A stretch of 64,000 nucleotides of DNA from a bacterium (GTDB lineage Bacteria; SZUA-79; Acidulodesulfobacterales; Acidulodesulfobacteraceae): positions 1 to 64,000 of the forward strand of contig JAJYPL010000002.1 in assembly GCA_021795355.1 (NCBI GenBank). Reading direction: 5' to 3'. The notes under the pieces were generated by a model that saw nothing but the letters and a program-made list of their open reading frames with translations, was not told where the DNA came from and did no database searches. Positions 2,157 through 10,488 of the stretch are shown piece after piece. The translations under genes and the position numbers were made by a program. The number at the start of each line of letters is the position of its first letter. The stretch's first letter is position 1.

Positions 2157-3497
2157 TTAATTTAATTTAGCGCCTGTATTCTTAATCACGTTCCAGCTTT
2201 TTAACAGCTCGTATGCAAACCTGAATTGATTATCCTTTTTGAAATAAATGTTAAAGGTTTTATATTTATCCTTCTCCCTGTTTGCTATATTTTTGCTTTC
2301 GGGATTTTTAAAATGATGCATCAAGTCGACTTCCCTTAGTTTTCTTAAAGGTTTTACGAATATGAAATCTTTAGAACTGTGAACGTAAAAATTAGGTATT
2401 ACGCCGGTATCTTGAACTGATACCCCGTTCGGAAGAAAATAAAAAGCCGTGGTAAGCCCCATGCCGGCATCGTCGGGCAGCGTAAATATCGTCTGAACCG
2501 AACCTTTGCCGAAAGTTTTAGTGCCTACTATTATTGCGCGTTTATGCGCCTGTAAACTGCCCGAAGTAATCTCGGCGGCGCTTGCCGTTCCGGCATTAAC
2601 CAGCACGGCTATTGGGTAATCCGGCTGTATTTGGTTTCCCAAAGCATAATATTTTACGTCTTGAGATTTTATTCTGCCTTTTGTATAAACTATAACTCCG
2701 CTCTTTATGAAATCGCTGCATACTTTTACGGCTTGATTCAACAATCCTCCGGGATTATTCCTGAGATCCAGGATAAGCCCTTTAATGCCGTGCTCCTTAA
2801 TACTTATAATCTTCAAAGCCTTCAAAAGCTGAGAATTAGTATGCTCCTGAAAACTTGAAATTCTGACGTAACCTACATGATTTGGAAGAATCATATAGGT
2901 TACGCTTTTAAGCATTATTTTTTCTCTCGTCAATACGAATATTTTAGGTTTTTTAAATCCCTTTCTGTTTATTAAGAGCGTAACCGAAGTCCCGACTTTT
3001 CCGTGCAAAAGTTTAACGGCTTTCATGATATTCATATGATAAGTCGAAATACCGTTAATTTTTTCTATAACGTCGCCTGCTTTTATTCCTGCGTTTGCGG
3101 CAGGAGAACCGTCTATAGGCGAAATAATAACGACGTATCCTTTTCTGACAGATATTTTTACGCCTATGCCGGTAAATTCGCCGGACGTTTCAGATTTCAT
3201 CTGCCTGAATTCGCTTGGAGTAAGAAAATAGGTGTGGGGGTCAAGGGTGGATATCATGCCTTCTATCGCCCCGAACATAAGTTTTTTCGACGGCTCTTTT
3301 TTTATATAGTCGTTTTTTATCAATGCGTAAACTTTTGAAAACAACCTTAAATTTTTAACGGTATTTGAATCAAATTTTTTAACGGCTGCTTTATGTCCGG
3401 CTTTTACGGCGGCATAAACTTTTACGCAATTTACGGAAACCGATAAAATAAATAATATTGAAAACAAAAATATTATGCGGTATTTTATTTTAGCCAT
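2157..3497 (-). CDS. ctpA: S41-family carboxyl-terminal processing peptidase with PDZ domain
   Basis: Signal peptide, PDZ (GIGVKISVRKGYVVIISPIDGSPAANAGIKAGDVI), catalytic NAGTASAAEITSGSLQ...GTKTFGKGSVQ. Confidence 0.92.
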   Translation of the reverse strand: MAKIKYRIIFLFSILFILSVSVNCVKVYAAVKAGHKAAVKKFDSNTVKNLRLFSKVYALIKNDYIKKEPSKKLMFGAIEGMISTLDPHTYFLTPSEFRQMKSETSGEFTGIGVKISVRKGYVVIISPIDGSPAANAGIKAGDVIEKINGISTYHMNIMKAVKLLHGKVGTSVTLLINRKGFKKPKIFVLTREKIMLKSVTYMILPNHVGYVRISSFQEHTNSQLLKALKIISIKEHGIKGLILDLRNNPGGLLNQAVKVCSDFIKSGVIVYTKGRIKSQDVKYYALGNQIQPDYPIAVLVNAGTASAAEITSGSLQAHKRAIIVGTKTFGKGSVQTIFTLPDDAGMGLTTAFYFLPNGVSVQDTGVIPNFYVHSSKDFIFVKPLRKLREVDLMHHFKNPESKNIANREKDKYKTFNIYFKKDNQFRFAYELLKSWNVIKNTGAKLN

Positions 3498-3508
3498 GCT
3501 TCACCTCT

Positions 3509-4267
3509 TTATTTTATTACTTGGAATATTATACCGCTGCTGCGGGATTTATTTTTTAAATTCTTAATTAATTTTATAACTTTACGTTTTAAAAGTCTAT
3601 TCTTTTTATTATCCCTGCGCATATTCCCGGGTTTTTTAGACAGGTAGCCGTTATAATTTTTATCATTATTTATTTTTAACGACTTCATATACATATTTAA
3701 ACCGGTTATCAGTTGTTTTAACCTTTTTTTTGAACGTTTTATGCTGTTAATGTCGGCGACAAGACTGTTTTTTTCGTTTTTTAAATATTTTTTTAAATGT
3801 AAAAATTTATTTTTCCGTTTAACAAGATGCAAAAGTTTTCTTTCTTCTTTTTTCAGTAAAATTTTTAACTGGTAATTTATTATAAAAGCATTGCTGTCGT
3901 CTTTAAACGAAATTATTCCGTCTAATCGATACTCTTTATGGATAATAAAAATTTTTTCGGTTAAATCCTTTATTAGCAAACCGTATTTATTTATTTTCTT
4001 TTTTATTTTTTTTATATGCTTTTCGTCTTTTCTAATCTTTTTTTTCAGGCTGCTTACGGCAGAATCTCTGCGGGATATTTTAGAAGATATTAAGGATAAT
4101 TCTTTTTTATAAAATGTAAGGCGTTTAATTACGGATCGGTATTTCAAACGCGTGTTTATATTTGACTTAAATGCAGCGAAACTATTGCGGCAATAATAGG
4201 AAAGCGGTACCGATAGAAATATGACAAGAAAAAACAATAGCTTATTATTAATAATAATTTTCTTCAT
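3509..4267 (-). CDS. Secreted or membrane-anchored coiled-coil protein, EnvC-like N-terminal region only (no M23/LytM domain)
   Basis: N-terminal hydrophobic segment then Lys-rich heptad-like coiled coil; sits directly upstream of ctpA, a common position for EnvC-like genes. Confidence 0.55.
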   Translation of the reverse strand: MKKIIINNKLLFFLVIFLSVPLSYYCRNSFAAFKSNINTRLKYRSVIKRLTFYKKELSLISSKISRRDSAVSSLKKKIRKDEKHIKKIKKKINKYGLLIKDLTEKIFIIHKEYRLDGIISFKDDSNAFIINYQLKILLKKEERKLLHLVKRKNKFLHLKKYLKNEKNSLVADINSIKRSKKRLKQLITGLNMYMKSLKINNDKNYNGYLSKKPGNMRRDNKKNRLLKRKVIKLIKNLKNKSRSSGIIFQVIK

Positions 4268-4272
4268 CTATA

Positions 4273-4323
4273 AAAATAAAATCCAGCCACCATTTTCATT
4301 TAACGCATTAAAATGATAGCTGG
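4273..4323 (-). terminator. Rho-independent terminator of the first Lys/Ala-rich lipoprotein gene
   Basis: Minus strand CCAGCTATCATTTT...AAAATGGTGGCTGG hairpin followed by ATTTTATTTTTAT. Confidence 0.7.
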
Positions 4324-4343
4324 AGAAATTTAAATCTTTAGCC

Positions 4344-4568
4344 TTAGCTTTTTGCTTTTGCGGTTTTTGCAGCTGCTTTTTTAGTTGCTTTTTTGGCTGC
4401 TTTTTTGGCTGCTTTTTTGGCTGCTTTTTTAGCCGGTTTTGCAGCTTTTTTGGTTACTGCCGGTTTTGCCGCTTTTGCCGGAGCCGCTGCTTTCTTTGCG
4501 CAACCCGAAAATGCAAAAGTCGATATGACTAAAAACACTCCTAAAACTAATACTGTAAGCTTTTTCAA
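4344..4568 (-). CDS. Small Lys/Ala-rich lipoprotein (paralog 1)
   Basis: Signal peptide with lipobox FSGC, then KKAA repeats; strong SD AAAGGAGGTG and consensus promoter upstream. Confidence 0.8.
   Translation of the reverse strand: MKKLTVLVLGVFLVISTFAFSGCAKKAAAPAKAAKPAVTKKAAKPAKKAAKKAAKKAAKKATKKAAAKTAKAKS
4372..4431. repeat. Tandem repeat, 5 x 12 bp (gctgcttttttg-like)
   Basis: gctgctttttta-gttgcttttttg-gctgcttttttg-gctgcttttttg-gctgctttttta, coding for AAKK-type repeats. Confidence 0.9.
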
Positions 4569-4633
4569 ATTTTATCACCTCCTTTAACATTTTTATTCTA
4601 TTTTTAGTGAAGAATTTTGTCAAGAAAAATTTT
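4527..4633. repeat. 107-bp perfect direct repeat, copy 1
   Basis: Identical by eye to 6512-6618; spans signal-peptide codons, SD and promoter. Confidence 0.9.
4595..4623 (-). promoter_or_regulatory. Consensus sigma70 promoter, lipoprotein paralog 1
   Basis: Minus strand TTGACA-17 nt-TAGAAT. Confidence 0.75.
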
Positions 4634-4702
4634 GACTGCAATAACAATTAGTTTATTCATTTTAAAGAATGGAATTTTATATCAAGATTAAAGCGGTTCA
4701 AC

Positions 4703-4735
4703 AAAAAGGGCTCACGGCAAATAGCCTGTAAGCCC
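4703..4735 (-). terminator. Rho-independent terminator downstream of the 4876-5883 gene
   Basis: Minus strand GGGCTTACAGGC...GCCGTGAGCCC followed by TTTTT. Confidence 0.7.
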
Positions 4736-4875
4736 CAAATTGTAGGTTTAATAAGAGTTTAATAAATTAATAATATGTTTGACTTTTTCTATTATGCGCA
4801 ATGACTTTCGTAAAATATCACTATTTTTAAAAAAATTGCTGACGCACCAAAAGCATCGCCTGGCCATTATCTTTA

Positions 4876-5883
4876 TTAATATGCAAGTCCGTATAAAATC
4901 ATCTGCTTAAGAGATCCTTGAATGGAGCCGGGCATACCCATATGGGTCATAAAAGCCATCATGCCTGCATCTGCGAAATAATATTTCATTCTCCACATTT
5001 CTCCAAGTATAGAAACATCGGTATAATTTCCTGCCCTGTATATAAGTATTTCAACGGGATAAGACGGACTGTGGTCTATTCCCGGAAACTTATCCGAGGA
5101 AGTAGCTCTTGCGCCGCTGTCTATTTCTATCGAATGTCTTTCCGTTGAGCTTCTAGTGACGCCTATTTCTATAAATCCTATAGAAGGCTTTTCTATCTTG
5201 TAAACTAAATGCCATCCGCCGTTATTACGCCCTATACCCTTTAAAATTAAATCGGCTACTCCGAGCAGATTTGAATCGGTGCTTCCGGAATAGTTGGATA
5301 TCTGATCGACGCTTCCAGGGAATGAGCCTCCGCCTATTCCGCCCGGAAACCTTCCTGCCCTCATAGGTCCGTACTGGCTGTTTGACGGCGTTCCGCCTAT
5401 CGCTTCTCTTATTATGCTTTTCAAATAGTTATTGACTTCTACTGCATAAGCTACATAAGAATTACCCGAAAAAGTCCTTGCCAGCGCAGGCAAATTTACC
5501 ATACTCACGACTACTCCCTGATTCGGCGTAGTATAAACGGCTATCCTTAAAGGCAGTCCAAAAGCTCCAAGAGGATAGTTCCCGTTATCCGCCATATATT
5601 TATCGTAAACACCGTTGGCTGCAACTATAACCGTTGAATGATAAGAGTCTCCCGACGGAAGCGAAGTGTTAAATCTGCCTATAACCGTCCAATTATGAGC
5701 GTTCAAAGCGTTTTCTACTTTTTGCGTTACGGATGAAATGCTTCCGGGAACATTGACGGCAACCTTAGTAAACACCCCGTAATCAGCAGCAAACACGCTG
5801 TCGGCAATTAAAAAAACCGATAGAAACGCAAAAACTAAAAAAAACAAAAATTTTAACTCAAACAATTTCATAGCTTTTTTCAT
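4876..5883 (-). CDS. Secreted protein of unknown function with possible DUF302-like repeats
   Basis: Clear signal peptide (FLIADSVFAADY); segments such as VTQKVENALNAHNWTVIGRF are reminiscent of DUF302 but assignment is weak. Confidence 0.6.
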   Translation of the reverse strand: MKKAMKLFELKFLFFLVFAFLSVFLIADSVFAADYGVFTKVAVNVPGSISSVTQKVENALNAHNWTVIGRFNTSLPSGDSYHSTVIVAANGVYDKYMADNGNYPLGAFGLPLRIAVYTTPNQGVVVSMVNLPALARTFSGNSYVAYAVEVNNYLKSIIREAIGGTPSNSQYGPMRAGRFPGGIGGGSFPGSVDQISNYSGSTDSNLLGVADLILKGIGRNNGGWHLVYKIEKPSIGFIEIGVTRSSTERHSIEIDSGARATSSDKFPGIDHSPSYPVEILIYRAGNYTDVSILGEMWRMKYYFADAGMMAFMTHMGMPGSIQGSLKQMILYGLAY

Positions 5884-5929
5884 TACTTTTCCTCCATTTT
5901 TTTAAAATGTTAATAAAATGATAAATTAA

Positions 5930-5958
5930 TATTTATCATAAAATGTTTACTCTGTCAA
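5930..5958 (-). promoter_or_regulatory. Sigma70-like promoter for the secreted protein gene
   Basis: Minus strand TTGACA-17 nt-TAAATA; GATAAAT...ATTTATC inverted repeat overlaps the -10. Confidence 0.6.
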
Positions 5959-6244
5959 TTGATTATTTTAGGTATGAATTATTTTGGGTATTATTGCTTT
6001 TTAATAATTTTTAAATTTAAAAATTTATTTCTTAGCTTGGTAAGTTTATAAATTTAGTTTCTTTCTCCCGTAAAAGCATCTCAAAGCTGTATGATAATTT
6101 ACAAGGAAGTTTTTTAATCGAATAATGAAAAAATAATAAATTAACGCAAAGGTATTATTTATGTATTATAAAAATTTTTTAGATTTTAAAAAGTAAGCGG
6201 ATAGACAAAACATCTGCGGCTGTATTAAAAATAAGGATTAAATC

Positions 6245-6282
6245 CCGCTTCCTATGCCGGTTTGTATTTGCATAGAAAGCGG
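6245..6282. terminator. Strong hairpin downstream of lipoprotein paralog 2, possible terminator
   Basis: CCGCTTCCTATGC...GCATAGAAAGCGG stem; U-tract is not immediately adjacent. Confidence 0.45.
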
Positions 6283-6307
6283 TCTAAAAATTTTAAATTT
6301 CAAAACA

Positions 6308-6553
6308 TTAGCTGTTTGCTTTGGGAGCTGCCGGAGCTTTAGGGGCTGCAGGAGCTTTGGGAGCTTTGGCTGCCGCTTTTTTAGCAGTAGCTTTAGCAGC
6401 TTTAGCTTTGGTTGCCGCTTTTTTAGCAGTAGCAACAGGAGCTGCCGGAGCTTTAGGAGCCGGTTTAGCAGTCTGTTTTTTTGCGCAACCAGAAAATGCA
6501 AGCGCCGATACGACTAAAAACACTCCTAAAACTAATACTGTAAGCTTTTTCAA
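6308..6553 (-). CDS. Small Lys/Ala/Pro-rich lipoprotein (paralog 2)
   Basis: Signal peptide MKKLTVLVLGVFLV and lipobox FSGC as in paralog 1; KAPAAPKAPAAPK tail. Confidence 0.8.
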   Translation of the reverse strand: MKKLTVLVLGVFLVVSALAFSGCAKKQTAKPAPKAPAAPVATAKKAATKAKAAKATAKKAAAKAPKAPAAPKAPAAPKANS

Positions 6554-6618
6554 ATTTTATCACCTCCTTTAACATTTTTATTCTATTTTTAGTGAAGAAT
6601 TTTGTCAAGAAAAATTTT
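6512..6618. repeat. 107-bp perfect direct repeat, copy 2
   Basis: Identical by eye to 4527-4633. Confidence 0.9.
6580..6608 (-). promoter_or_regulatory. Consensus sigma70 promoter, lipoprotein paralog 2
   Basis: Minus strand TTGACA-17 nt-TAGAAT, identical to paralog 1. Confidence 0.75.
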
Positions 6619-6640
6619 TATTGAAAAAAATGTATAATAT

Positions 6641-6660
6641 ATTATCATATATATGATAAT
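6641..6660. promoter_or_regulatory. Perfect 20-bp palindrome immediately upstream of the thiE ATG
   Basis: ATTATCATATATATGATAAT, downstream of a TATAAT at 6633-6638. Confidence 0.6.
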
Positions 6661-7320
6661 ATGAAAACTCTTAATTTTCAAATAATAACGAAAGATTTCG
6701 CTTTTGAAGAACGCTTTGAATATCTTAGCGAAATAGCCTGGGCGGCGGCCGGAAGTTCGGCGGACGTATTGCAGTTAAGAAATAAAAATATTTCATCGCG
6801 CAACCTTTACGATTGCGCAGTTTTTTTAAAAAAAAAGCTGGATAACTTAAATAACGGGAGCAAAACACTGCTCATTATAAACGACAGACCGGATATCGCA
6901 TACATTGCAGGAGCAGACGGAGTACACGTCGGACAGGAAGATTTCCCTGCGGATAGAATTAAGAAATTTTTTCCGAATTTAATAGTAGGCGTCAGCGCTG
7001 AAAACGTAAAACAGGCGGAAGCGGCGCAAAAAGGCGGAGCCGATTATATAGGCGCCGGACCGGTGTATCAGACCTCTTCCAAAAAGGACGCTGGAGACGC
7101 AATGGATAAAGAAATTTTTAAAGCAGTCTGTTCCTCCGTCGATATACCCGTTATCGCAATAGGCGGCATTACGGAAGACAATATAGAAGAACTTGCGGAA
7201 TTGGGAGCAGACGGAGCAGCCGTAATCGGCGCGGTTTCAAATGCAGACGATCCGCTGTCGGCGGCAATAAATTTTAGAAAACATATCGACAAATTTTTAA
7301 AATATAGAATAAGAAAATAG
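6661..7320 (+). CDS. thiE: Thiamine-phosphate synthase
   Basis: LLIINDRPDIAYIAGADGVHVGQED, VGVSAENVKQAEAAQKGGADYIGAGPVYQTSSK, VIAIGGI. Confidence 0.93.
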   Translation: MKTLNFQIITKDFAFEERFEYLSEIAWAAAGSSADVLQLRNKNISSRNLYDCAVFLKKKLDNLNNGSKTLLIINDRPDIAYIAGADGVHVGQEDFPADRIKKFFPNLIVGVSAENVKQAEAAQKGGADYIGAGPVYQTSSKKDAGDAMDKEIFKAVCSSVDIPVIAIGGITEDNIEELAELGADGAAVIGAVSNADDPLSAAINFRKHIDKFLKYRIRK

Positions 7321-7331
7321 AGGATTTATAT

Positions 7332-7973
7332 TTGATAGAATTCAGCCACGTTTATAAAAATTACGATAAAAATTATATTTTAAGAGACTTAAATTTTACC
7401 GTAAATAAAGGGGAATTCATTTTTATTACCGGACCTTCCGGAGCAGGTAAAACTACTACGCTAAAAATGCTTATAGCAATGGAAAACCCTACACACGGCG
7501 CGGTAAAATTTATGGGAACGGAGCTCAACGATATCAAAAAAAGCGAGATACCGTTTTTAAGAAGAAAAATAGGATTTGTTTTTCAAGACTTTAAGCTGCT
7601 TCCGAAAAGAACGGTATTCCAGAACGTAGCGCTCGGGCTTGAGGTTTCCGGCGTCTTCGGAGACGTTATAACAAAAAACGTTTCGGAACTGCTTAAAGCC
7701 GTCGAACTTTATACAAAAAAAGACGAGTATCCGCTAAGCCTTTCAGGCGGCGAACAGCAAAGGGTCGCCATTGCAAGAGCGCTTGTACAGAATCCGCAGG
7801 TCCTGCTTGCGGACGAACCTACCGGAAACTTAGACGAGGAAACTTCTAAAATCATAATCGATATAATAAAATCTTTCAACAATAAAGGCACTACGGTAAT
7901 GCTGGCTACTCACGATAAACATCTAATAGCTGATACGGGCAGGGCAAGGGTAATTGATATCACAAAAGCTTAA
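7332..7973 (+). CDS. ftsE: Cell division ATP-binding protein FtsE
   Basis: Walker [25 protein letters not shown], followed by an FtsX-like gene. Confidence 0.93.
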
Positions 7974-8853
7974 ATATTTAATAAATTATTTTAAAATTGC
8001 GTTCTTAAATATTAAATCTAATATTTCCGGGAACGTTTTCGCTTTTTTAATAATGTCCTTTTCGTTTTTCATAATGCTTTTTTTTCTTCTGTGTTATGTA
8101 AATATTTATAACTACATGAATATTTTTCAAAAAAACAGCGTTATGATCGTTTTTTTGAAAAGCGGGGCAGGCAAAAAAAACAGGCAGAATATAATTAATT
8201 TTATAAATAAAATCAATGGAATTAAAAAAATTAAATACTACGGAAATAAATCTTCAATGGAATTTTTATCTAAAAGATTAAAAAATCTTAAATCTGTTTT
8301 AAAAAACATAAATCCAAAGGTCATGCCTTCATTTATTAAAATTCATTTTAAAAAAAGCGCGGTAAGCGCTATTTTTCTAAGCAATATTTATCTGAGACTG
8401 ACTTCCCTTAAAGGAATTAAATTAGTTTACTACAACAAAATGCTGGAAAATAAAATAATGCAGTTTATGTTTTTTACTAAAGTTATAGGTTTTATTCTAT
8501 TTTTATTCCTCTTAATTCTGTCTGTTTTTATATCATACAGCGCAATAAAGCTTATTATATTGCGGAAACAAAACGAAATAGAAATACTAAAGCTTATAGG
8601 AGCTACCGACGGCTATATAAGAATACCTATGTTTATAGAAGGCGAAATAGGCACCGTTTTAGCTTTTTTAGTTTCTATCTCGCTGCTTTACTCAATTTAT
8701 AAAATATTTATATTTTACGGGTTCGACGGCTTCTTAAATTTTTTCCATATAAAAATAATTTTTTTAAACTCTGTGCAGATTGCCGCCGTCTTTTTAATAG
8801 CCTTAATATCAGGCATTGCAGGAACTTATTTGTCTTCTCGGAAATTCTTTTAA
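7954..8853 (+). CDS. ftsX: Cell division permease FtsX
   Basis: 4-TM-like profile, LRKQNEIEILKLIGATDGYIRIPMFIEGEIG; overlaps ftsE; TTG start. Confidence 0.88.
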   Translation: MISQKLKYLINYFKIAFLNIKSNISGNVFAFLIMSFSFFIMLFFLLCYVNIYNYMNIFQKNSVMIVFLKSGAGKKNRQNIINFINKINGIKKIKYYGNKSSMEFLSKRLKNLKSVLKNINPKVMPSFIKIHFKKSAVSAIFLSNIYLRLTSLKGIKLVYYNKMLENKIMQFMFFTKVIGFILFLFLLILSVFISYSAIKLIILRKQNEIEILKLIGATDGYIRIPMFIEGEIGTVLAFLVSISLLYSIYKIFIFYGFDGFLNFFHIKIIFLNSVQIAAVFLIALISGIAGTYLSSRKFF

Positions 8854-8871
8854 TATATAAACCTGAACGGA

Positions 8872-10488
8872 TTAAATGCGCGTTATTTCTTTAAACAGCT
8901 TCATATCGACGTATTTTTCTATATTACCGGCGAGAATGTTAAAGCTTTCGTTTTTAACGTCTGCATAACCGCGATTATTATTCGGCAAGACGTATTTATT
9001 GTTTTTATTTTTATTGTTTTTATTCATAACGTCTTCTAAAAAATCCCTAAATACTTTATCGGCAAACAATCCATGGACGTAAGTCCCTATTTTTCTTCCA
9101 TCTTCGGATATAAGGGACAAAACTTCGTTTTTCGGCGAAAATTCTAAAGCGCATTTACCGCCGGAATTATCGTTTACGTGTTTAAACAAAAAAGACGAAA
9201 GGCCTTTGACGCCTTGACGACGGTTAAATTCAACATTTTCTGCGTCTTTTAAAAAACTCCTTCCGTTATGAATCTCATAGCCGTTAAGGAAACTGCCGTT
9301 AAAATCATACTTTCGGCTGACGGTTATTTTTTTGTCCGACAATATCGTTTCAAGGCCAAAAAAACCAAAACCGCCGACGGCTTCTAAATTCTCCGAATTT
9401 TTACATGATTCAAGTTTATAAGGGTCCTTTATTATGTCTCCCATCATCTGAAAACCGCCGCAAATTCCCAATATGATACCTTTATTAAGTTTTTCGAATC
9501 TTTTTATATAATCAAAAATTCCAGACTTTTTTATTCGGTTTAAATCCGAAGCGGTAGATTTAGTTCCGGGAATTATTATAATATCAAATTTATCGGCTTC
9601 GCCAATCGGAACAGCGTCGAAAAAAACGGTATGAAACCTTTCGTCAAAAAAAAGAGGATCGAATTCGTTAAAATTTGAAATATGCTCTAAGCGGACTATT
9701 CCAATTTTAATCTTTCCGCCGTTTTCGGCGTATATATCCGACAGGCTTGCATAATTTTTCAGATTTAAACTGTCTTCGGCCTCTATATGTATATTTTTAA
9801 TATAAGGAATTACGCCTGCGCACGGTATCTTTAAACGTTTTTCTATCTCGTCGATACCGGGCTTCAGTATGGAAATATTACCCCTGAACTTATTTATTAT
9901 AAATCCTTTGACCAATTTTTTCCATTTAGGTTTCAGCAGTTTTACGGTTCCGTATAAAGACGCAAAAACTCCTCCTCTTTCAATATCGGCGATTAAAATT
10001 ACCGGAATATTATAAATTTCGGCGAAACCCATATTGGCGATATCATACTTATAGAGATTTATTTCAGCCGGACTTCCTGCGCCTTCCGCTATAACGAGTT
10101 CGTTGCGTTCCGTTAAAAAATCGAAAGATTGGGAAGCTTTTTTTAAAAAAAACCTTTTCTTGCCGTTATATTCTTCAAAATTCATATTGCCGAAATGTTT
10201 TCCGTCCAAAATCAGATGCATTTCGGTATCGGAAGAAGGCTTTATTAAAATAGGATTAATCTGCCTCAGCGGTTTTTTAAAAGCGGCTTCGGACTGTACC
10301 GCTTGAGAAACTGCAATTTCGGAACCGTCTTCCGTAACAAAACTGTTAAGCGACATATTCTGGGATTTAAAAGGCGAGCAGTTTACCCCTCTGTTTGCAA
10401 AATACCTTAAAAATCCGGCGGTCAAAACGCTCTTGCCGACGGAACTCGACGTCCCCTGTATCATTATAGATTTAGATTTCATACCCAT
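8872..10488 (-). CDS. cobQ: Cobyric acid synthase
   Basis: MIQGTSSSVGKSVLTAGFLRYFANRG...PFKSQNMSLNSFVTEDGSEI; GATase domain GICGGFQMMG, GTYVHGLF. Confidence 0.95.
   Translation of the reverse strand: MGMKSKSIMIQGTSSSVGKSVLTAGFLRYFANRGVNCSPFKSQNMSLNSFVTEDGSEIAVSQAVQSEAAFKKPLRQINPILIKPSSDTEMHLILDGKHFGNMNFEEYNGKKRFFLKKASQSFDFLTERNELVIAEGAGSPAEINLYKYDIANMGFAEIYNIPVILIADIERGGVFASLYGTVKLLKPKWKKLVKGFIINKFRGNISILKPGIDEIEKRLKIPCAGVIPYIKNIHIEAEDSLNLKNYASLSDIYAENGGKIKIGIVRLEHISNFNEFDPLFFDERFHTVFFDAVPIGEADKFDIIIIPGTKSTASDLNRIKKSGIFDYIKRFEKLNKGIILGICGGFQMMGDIIKDPYKLESCKNSENLEAVGGFGFFGLETILSDKKITVSRKYDFNGSFLNGYEIHNGRSFLKDAENVEFNRRQGVKGLSSFLFKHVNDNSGGKCALEFSPKNEVLSLISEDGRKIGTYVHGLFADKVFRDFLEDVMNKNNKNKNNKYVLPNNNRGYADVKNESFNILAGNIEKYVDMKLFKEITRI

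Follow-up and report, generated by a model that had tools for sequence, protein, structure and literature searches.

The repeated module is the front of a phylum-wide gene

We find that the promoter, ribosome site and TTG start shared by two lipoprotein genes of the window (the whole stretch of 64,000 nucleotides that was analysed) form the front of a normally single-copy, phylum-wide gene and are not peculiar to the pair. A search with the signal peptide recovers the same lipoprotein gene in 28/30 genomes of the phylum, covering all six genera, and most of these genomes hold a single copy. The ctpA gene of the locus is likewise missing from the two genomes without a match, and because of this the absence is most simply put down to missing sequence. 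The phylum consists of uncultured, mostly mine-water bacteria. The signal-peptide search gave no match in 31 genomes from other families, and a scan of an 84,980-species collection returned 22 loci, two of them outside the phylum; these two (Planctomycetota L051 and Clostridia L054) encode other lipoproteins that share the signal-peptide and lipobox residues alone, and no genuine relative outside the phylum was found in either the scan or the 31 genomes. One match of the scan is Ca. Acididesulfobacter diazotrophicus, the group having been described as Ca. Acidulodesulfobacterales (PMC6776010). The main paper on this group makes no mention of any lipoprotein, literature searches on lysine-rich lipoproteins returned nothing, and the phylum-wide family is undescribed in the literature searched.

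In the window the two copies of the gene, A and B, start within a direct repeat which, as the original prediction had stated, is identical over 107 bp (Table 1); around it lies a larger repeat pair of 154 nt at 94% identity, 1,985 bp apart, and a chance origin of the exact repeat is far too improbable. Each repeat copy comprises TTGACA-17-TAGAAT, an SD, a TTG start and 14 signal-peptide codons. The consensus promoter and the ideal SD that had been claimed are found in both copies: the two TTGACA-17-TAGAAT sites have 11/12 consensus matches and are the two best promoter-like sites within 3000-9000, and AAAGGAGGTGATAAAAT stands immediately upstream of both start codons, which are TTG, a feature left unmentioned in the prediction. 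Within its own genome (G000, a MAG 66% complete, in 54 contigs) the module occurs at two sites only, both in the window. A search of 4000-7000 against Rfam gave no match, and the predicted folds of the leader RNA are weak and differ between genera.

Table 1. Features of the lipoprotein locus, with positions in the window
Feature	Position	Strand	Remarks
CtpA-type S41 peptidase with PDZ domain	2157..3497	-	conserved neighbour
Coiled-coil secreted protein	3509..4267	-	EnvC-like by position and coil only; conserved 3'-side neighbour
Terminator-like hairpin 3' of A	4283..4323	-	type otherwise only at other A copies and in G005
Copy A, lipoprotein, 74 aa	4344..4568	-	TTG start; lipobox AFSG-C; mature 52 aa, 20 Lys; AAKK-type tail
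Repeat copy 1, 107 bp	4527..4633	-	promoter, SD, start, 14 codons
Ribosome site of A, AAAGGAGGTGATAAAAT	4569..4585	-	directly 5' of TTG
Promoter of A	4595..4623	-	-35 TTGACA 4623-4618, 17 nt, -10 TAGAAT 4600-4595
Secreted protein, 335 aa	4876..5883	-	phylum-conserved family between A and B
Terminator-like hairpin 3' of B	6245..6282	-	resembles hairpin 3' of the single copy in other species of the genus
Copy B, lipoprotein, 81 aa	6308..6553	-	TTG start; mature 59 aa, 15 Lys; KAPAAPK tail, C-terminus KANS
Repeat copy 2, 107 bp	6512..6618	-	identical to repeat copy 1
Ribosome site of B	6554..6570	-	upstream of TTG
Promoter of B	6580..6608	-	-35 TTGACA 6608-6603, 17 nt, -10 TAGAAT 6585-6580
thiE, ftsE, ftsX	6661..8853	+	divergent conserved neighbours

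Across the phylum the -35 element is TTGACA in 30/30 readable promoters, the -10 element is TAGAAT in 29 and TAAAAT in one, the spacer is 17 or 18, and all 32 entries (31 distinct genes) have a TTG start with an SD. A similarity limited to the signal peptide had been named as one outcome that would speak against the prediction; in relatives the shared module is conserved well past it, through TTG, SD and promoter. In codons 2-10 synonymous identity amounts to 0.956 within genus and 0.735 between genera, the neighbouring genes having 0.62-0.65 and 0.47-0.50, respectively; in codons 11-26 it is 0.64 within genus, like ordinary sequence, and among control windows 2/2012 reach 0.95. Given that the starts of ftsE (0.82), thiE (0.81) and ftsX (0.97; ftsX overlaps ftsE) also show raised synonymous conservation, the conservation of the first codons is partly a general start-region effect, and only its extreme degree is specific. 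Nearly invariant in the phylum, the promoter-SD-TTG module could serve as a part for strong expression in these uncultured organisms.

Duplication and probable conversion

The duplication had been described as recent, which the relatives do not support. Both copies are present and intact, with the secreted-protein gene in between, in G000 and in two other species (G002 and G012), and the assembly of a third species, G014, shows A alone; there, the thiE contig stops exactly at the start of the repeat and another contig stops past the secreted-protein gene, before B would be reached, breaks that match the expectation for an assembly broken by an identical repeat. On its 5' side B has kept the ancestral neighbour, and its terminator is of ancestral type, whereas A has a new terminator type, both hairpins being strong (z about -5.6). 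B is evidently the ancestral gene and A an older duplicate, common to at least four species. The secreted 335-aa protein occurs in 23/30 phylum genomes, has no match in Pfam, NCBIfam, PHROGs or PDB, and gives an AlphaFold2 model (three sequences) with a pLDDT of 40. In species without the duplication its gene is found some 60 kb away, close to a ribonucleotide-reductase-like gene, and from that distance it evidently moved between the lipoprotein copies, in one clade.

Beyond residue 26 A and B share 55% identity, in agreement with the claim that their tails have diverged into AAKK and KAPAAPK types. Over the 107 bp they differ by 0 events in G000, 5 in G002 and 6 in G012. The front of A in G000 is 3 events away from B of G002 and of G012, and 4 and 5 events away from A of G002 and G012; in G000 and G014 alike it is nearer the B copies than the A copies of G002 and G012, while the sites just downstream are A-type. 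This pattern fits a conversion tract with B as donor and A as recipient whose boundary falls between codons 14 and 15, and the event counts in the three genomes support the earlier suggestion that gene conversion keeps the 5' modules alike while the tails diverge. The perfect identity is best read as local homogenisation on top of strong purifying selection. The absence of any difference could partly reflect assembly; G014, a separate MAG, has the same B-like 5' end. The genome is a fragmented MAG, which would suit a repeat without special biology, either a recent duplication retained by chance or an assembly artefact; with both copies resolved between different flanks in G000, G002 and G012, and a single-copy gene with the same module throughout the phylum, such an origin is very improbable.

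The 1,985-bp deletion predicted to arise between the repeats is not observed in the window's own genome. G005 has a single copy in which a front of ancestral type is followed by a tail and terminator of A type, and the secreted-protein gene is missing; this would match the product of recombination between the repeats, and an early split before the A-type changes would explain it equally well. In G018 (starts of L072 and L073) and G013 (start of L062) contigs end inside or at the lipoprotein tail, which suggests within-population variation of tail length or repeat-broken assembly.

Genomic neighbourhood

At the loci examined the lipoprotein gene is divergent from thiE-ftsE-ftsX and/or is followed by the envC-like gene, ctpA, pyrF and rlmB; on the other side lie cobQ, an HD-GYP gene, accA and dnaE. 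In two genera the block lipoprotein-thiE-ftsE-ftsX is inverted, with the lipoprotein gene still adjoining thiE (a four-gene inversion in L063, L066, L067 and L069 as compared with L058-L065 and L068). G005 is the exception, the lipoprotein gene and the envC-like side being separated from thiE; upstream of thiE, in the lipoprotein's place, are two tandem small cytochrome-c-like genes (L093:1-1010). In the window FtsE-FtsX (7332-8853) are found near a secreted coiled-coil protein without a detectable LytM domain (3509-4267), beside a CtpA protease, and FtsEX, the coiled-coil protein and CtpA make up an EnvC-like set of division partners that is unusual.

Since adjacency to ftsEX and/or to the envC-like gene and ctpA is kept across the phylum, the product could be a minor lipoprotein, or a regulator or partner of the FtsEX-EnvC-CtpA division machinery, whose position is conserved for that reason. 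We consider this rather improbable. The gene has a promoter and a terminator to itself and points away from thiE-ftsEX; accA, dnaE and pyrF have kept their place in its neighbourhood just as well; and the lipoprotein gene of G005 is located away from ftsEX. The small size and the lipid anchor would also fit a toxic or lysis lipoprotein (entericidin, colicin lysis or Rz1-like), and PHROGs yields a very weak match to an Rz-like spanin (E 0.03); this is scarcely credible for a core, syntenic chromosomal gene that has no phage or toxin genes among its neighbours and a strong promoter of constitutive type.

A drifting tail of fixed composition

The signal peptide, MKKLTVLVLG...AFSG-C, is that of a bacterial lipoprotein, the lipobox Cys being kept in all copies, and from this Cys on the proteins read CAKK, or CAKS/CAKA in two of them. 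The mature part is 47-78 residues long, and between its CAK(K) front and its C-terminus the sequence drifts, with indels. Its composition stays fixed: in 30 proteins, the 1653 tail residues include 634 Ala, 442 Lys, 255 Pro and 5 Glu, with 0 Arg, 0 Asp and no F, Y or W. At the Lys:Arg ratio of the neighbours, zero Arg among 442 basic residues has a probability of ~1e-54 if sites are assumed to be independent, which related proteins are not. Serine, rare elsewhere in the tails, is the C-terminal residue of 22/30 proteins, and KxxS ends 21/30; a C-terminal Lys occurs in 6/30, that is, in only part of the phylum. A drifting tail of this polylysine type would be a natural case of selection on composition instead of sequence. 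G023 encodes a second lipoprotein (L074:2303-2680) with a similar signal peptide; its mature part, also lysine-rich, is different and contains aromatics.

Discussion

What might such a protein do? We propose, giving the idea not quite an even chance, that it is abundant, sits in the outer membrane by its lipid anchor and has an extended cationic tail that touches peptidoglycan or is joined to it; it would do the work of Lpp while being unrelated to it. Its abundance, its outer-membrane location, the periplasmic position of the tail and the contact with peptidoglycan are all inferred from sequence, and so are the very high expression and the envelope role suggested in the prediction. A promoter close to consensus, an ideal SD and the constraint on the first codons are signals that would give strong constitutive synthesis, and the signal peptide and AFSG-C lipobox would lead to lipidation. 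By the E. coli rule, the CAKK start of the mature part would allow the Lol system to carry the protein to the outer membrane; LolA is found in 28/30 phylum genomes, and Asp, on which that sorting rule turns, never follows the lipobox Cys. The mature part is probably a disordered Lys/Ala/Pro chain, selected for composition, length and C-terminal end and not for sequence. It most likely extends into the periplasm and holds peptidoglycan there, either by charge or by way of a lysine that an L,D-transpeptidase uses; YkuD is found in 26/30 phylum genomes, the others being G000, G013, G017 (95% complete) and G024. Copy A would then be a duplicate confined to one clade, its tail richer in lysine and its 5' module presumably kept identical to that of B by gene conversion in this lineage. 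An OmpA/Pal domain is present in 30/30 phylum genomes; with OmpA-domain tethers in every genome there is therefore no need for a further one, which counts against the proposal, as do the four genomes in which YkuD was not found and the confinement of an Lpp-like C-terminal Lys to part of the phylum.

The chief rival of an Lpp-like tether is a cationic coat, on the cell surface or on the inner face of the outer membrane, that would bind LPS phosphates, metals or extracellular polyanions as an adaptation to acid and metal-rich water. Charge carried by Lys only would remain protonated at low pH, acidic residues are nearly absent from the tails, and named members of the phylum come from acid mine drainage, yet the locus adjoins division and peptidoglycan-related genes, not LPS genes, and we regard a coat as unlikely.

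For Gram-negative phyla that lack Lpp, the means of fastening the outer membrane to the wall are understood only in part, and a core, probably abundant lipoprotein would be a clear candidate for outer-membrane attachment in such a phylum. A more far-reaching form of the tether proposal, possible but doubtful, is that in this phylum an unrelated, intrinsically disordered polylysine-type lipoprotein would be the dominant tether between outer membrane and peptidoglycan, selected for charge, length and C-terminus, its module maintained by gene conversion where duplicated.

Comparison with known systems

The well-known Braun lipoprotein (Lpp) fastens outer membrane and cell wall together. A search with PF04728 (Lpp) found nothing above cut-off in the 30 phylum genomes while matching the E. 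coli control, copies A and B have no Pfam match, and B scores 21.2 bits, half of the 43-bit cut-off, against NF040598 (the NCBIfam Lpp/OprI Ala-zipper lipoprotein), a weak similarity that may reflect composition. On these results membership of the Lpp family is rejected. Like Lpp and OprI, our protein is a small lipoprotein with strong-looking expression signals, no globular domain, a lysine at or near the C-terminus and L,D-transpeptidases in most genomes; unlike them, it has a Lys/Ala/Pro-rich tail with almost no acidic residues and a C-terminus that is mostly KxxS.

AlgP, Hc1 and BpH1 are histone-H1-like bacterial proteins, cytoplasmic and of AAKK/KPAA-type composition. Our tails share this composition, and the description of them as histone-H1-like but lipid-anchored holds for the composition and for the signal peptide and lipobox; the resemblance goes no further than composition. 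A nucleoid protein of the histone H1-like kind would be cytoplasmic and have no signal peptide, and with signal peptide and lipobox present this identity is rejected. TonB is anchored in the inner membrane and has an extended Pro/Lys periplasmic linker and a folded C-terminal domain. Our tail, predicted to be an extended Pro/Lys/Ala chain in the periplasm, would resemble such linkers, whereas the lipoprotein has neither the inner-membrane anchor nor the folded domain.

The L,D-transpeptidase-tethered tails of Legionella and Coxiella (Lpg1810, KTPAPPEKDIT, and LimB) are short periplasmic tails containing K/P/A, which our predicted periplasmic tail would resemble as a possible attachment site (PMC11841132). 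Lpg1810, unlike our lipoprotein, is a beta-barrel with a C-terminal tail, and no sequence relationship is expected; in Legionella a lysine of this K/P/A-containing tail (KTPAPPEKDIT) is linked to peptidoglycan (PMC11841132). Given that no Lpp is detectable in the phylum, that YkuD, OmpA/Pal and LolA are present, and that the lysine-linked tail of Legionella is known, it is plausible that the lipoprotein works like Lpp.
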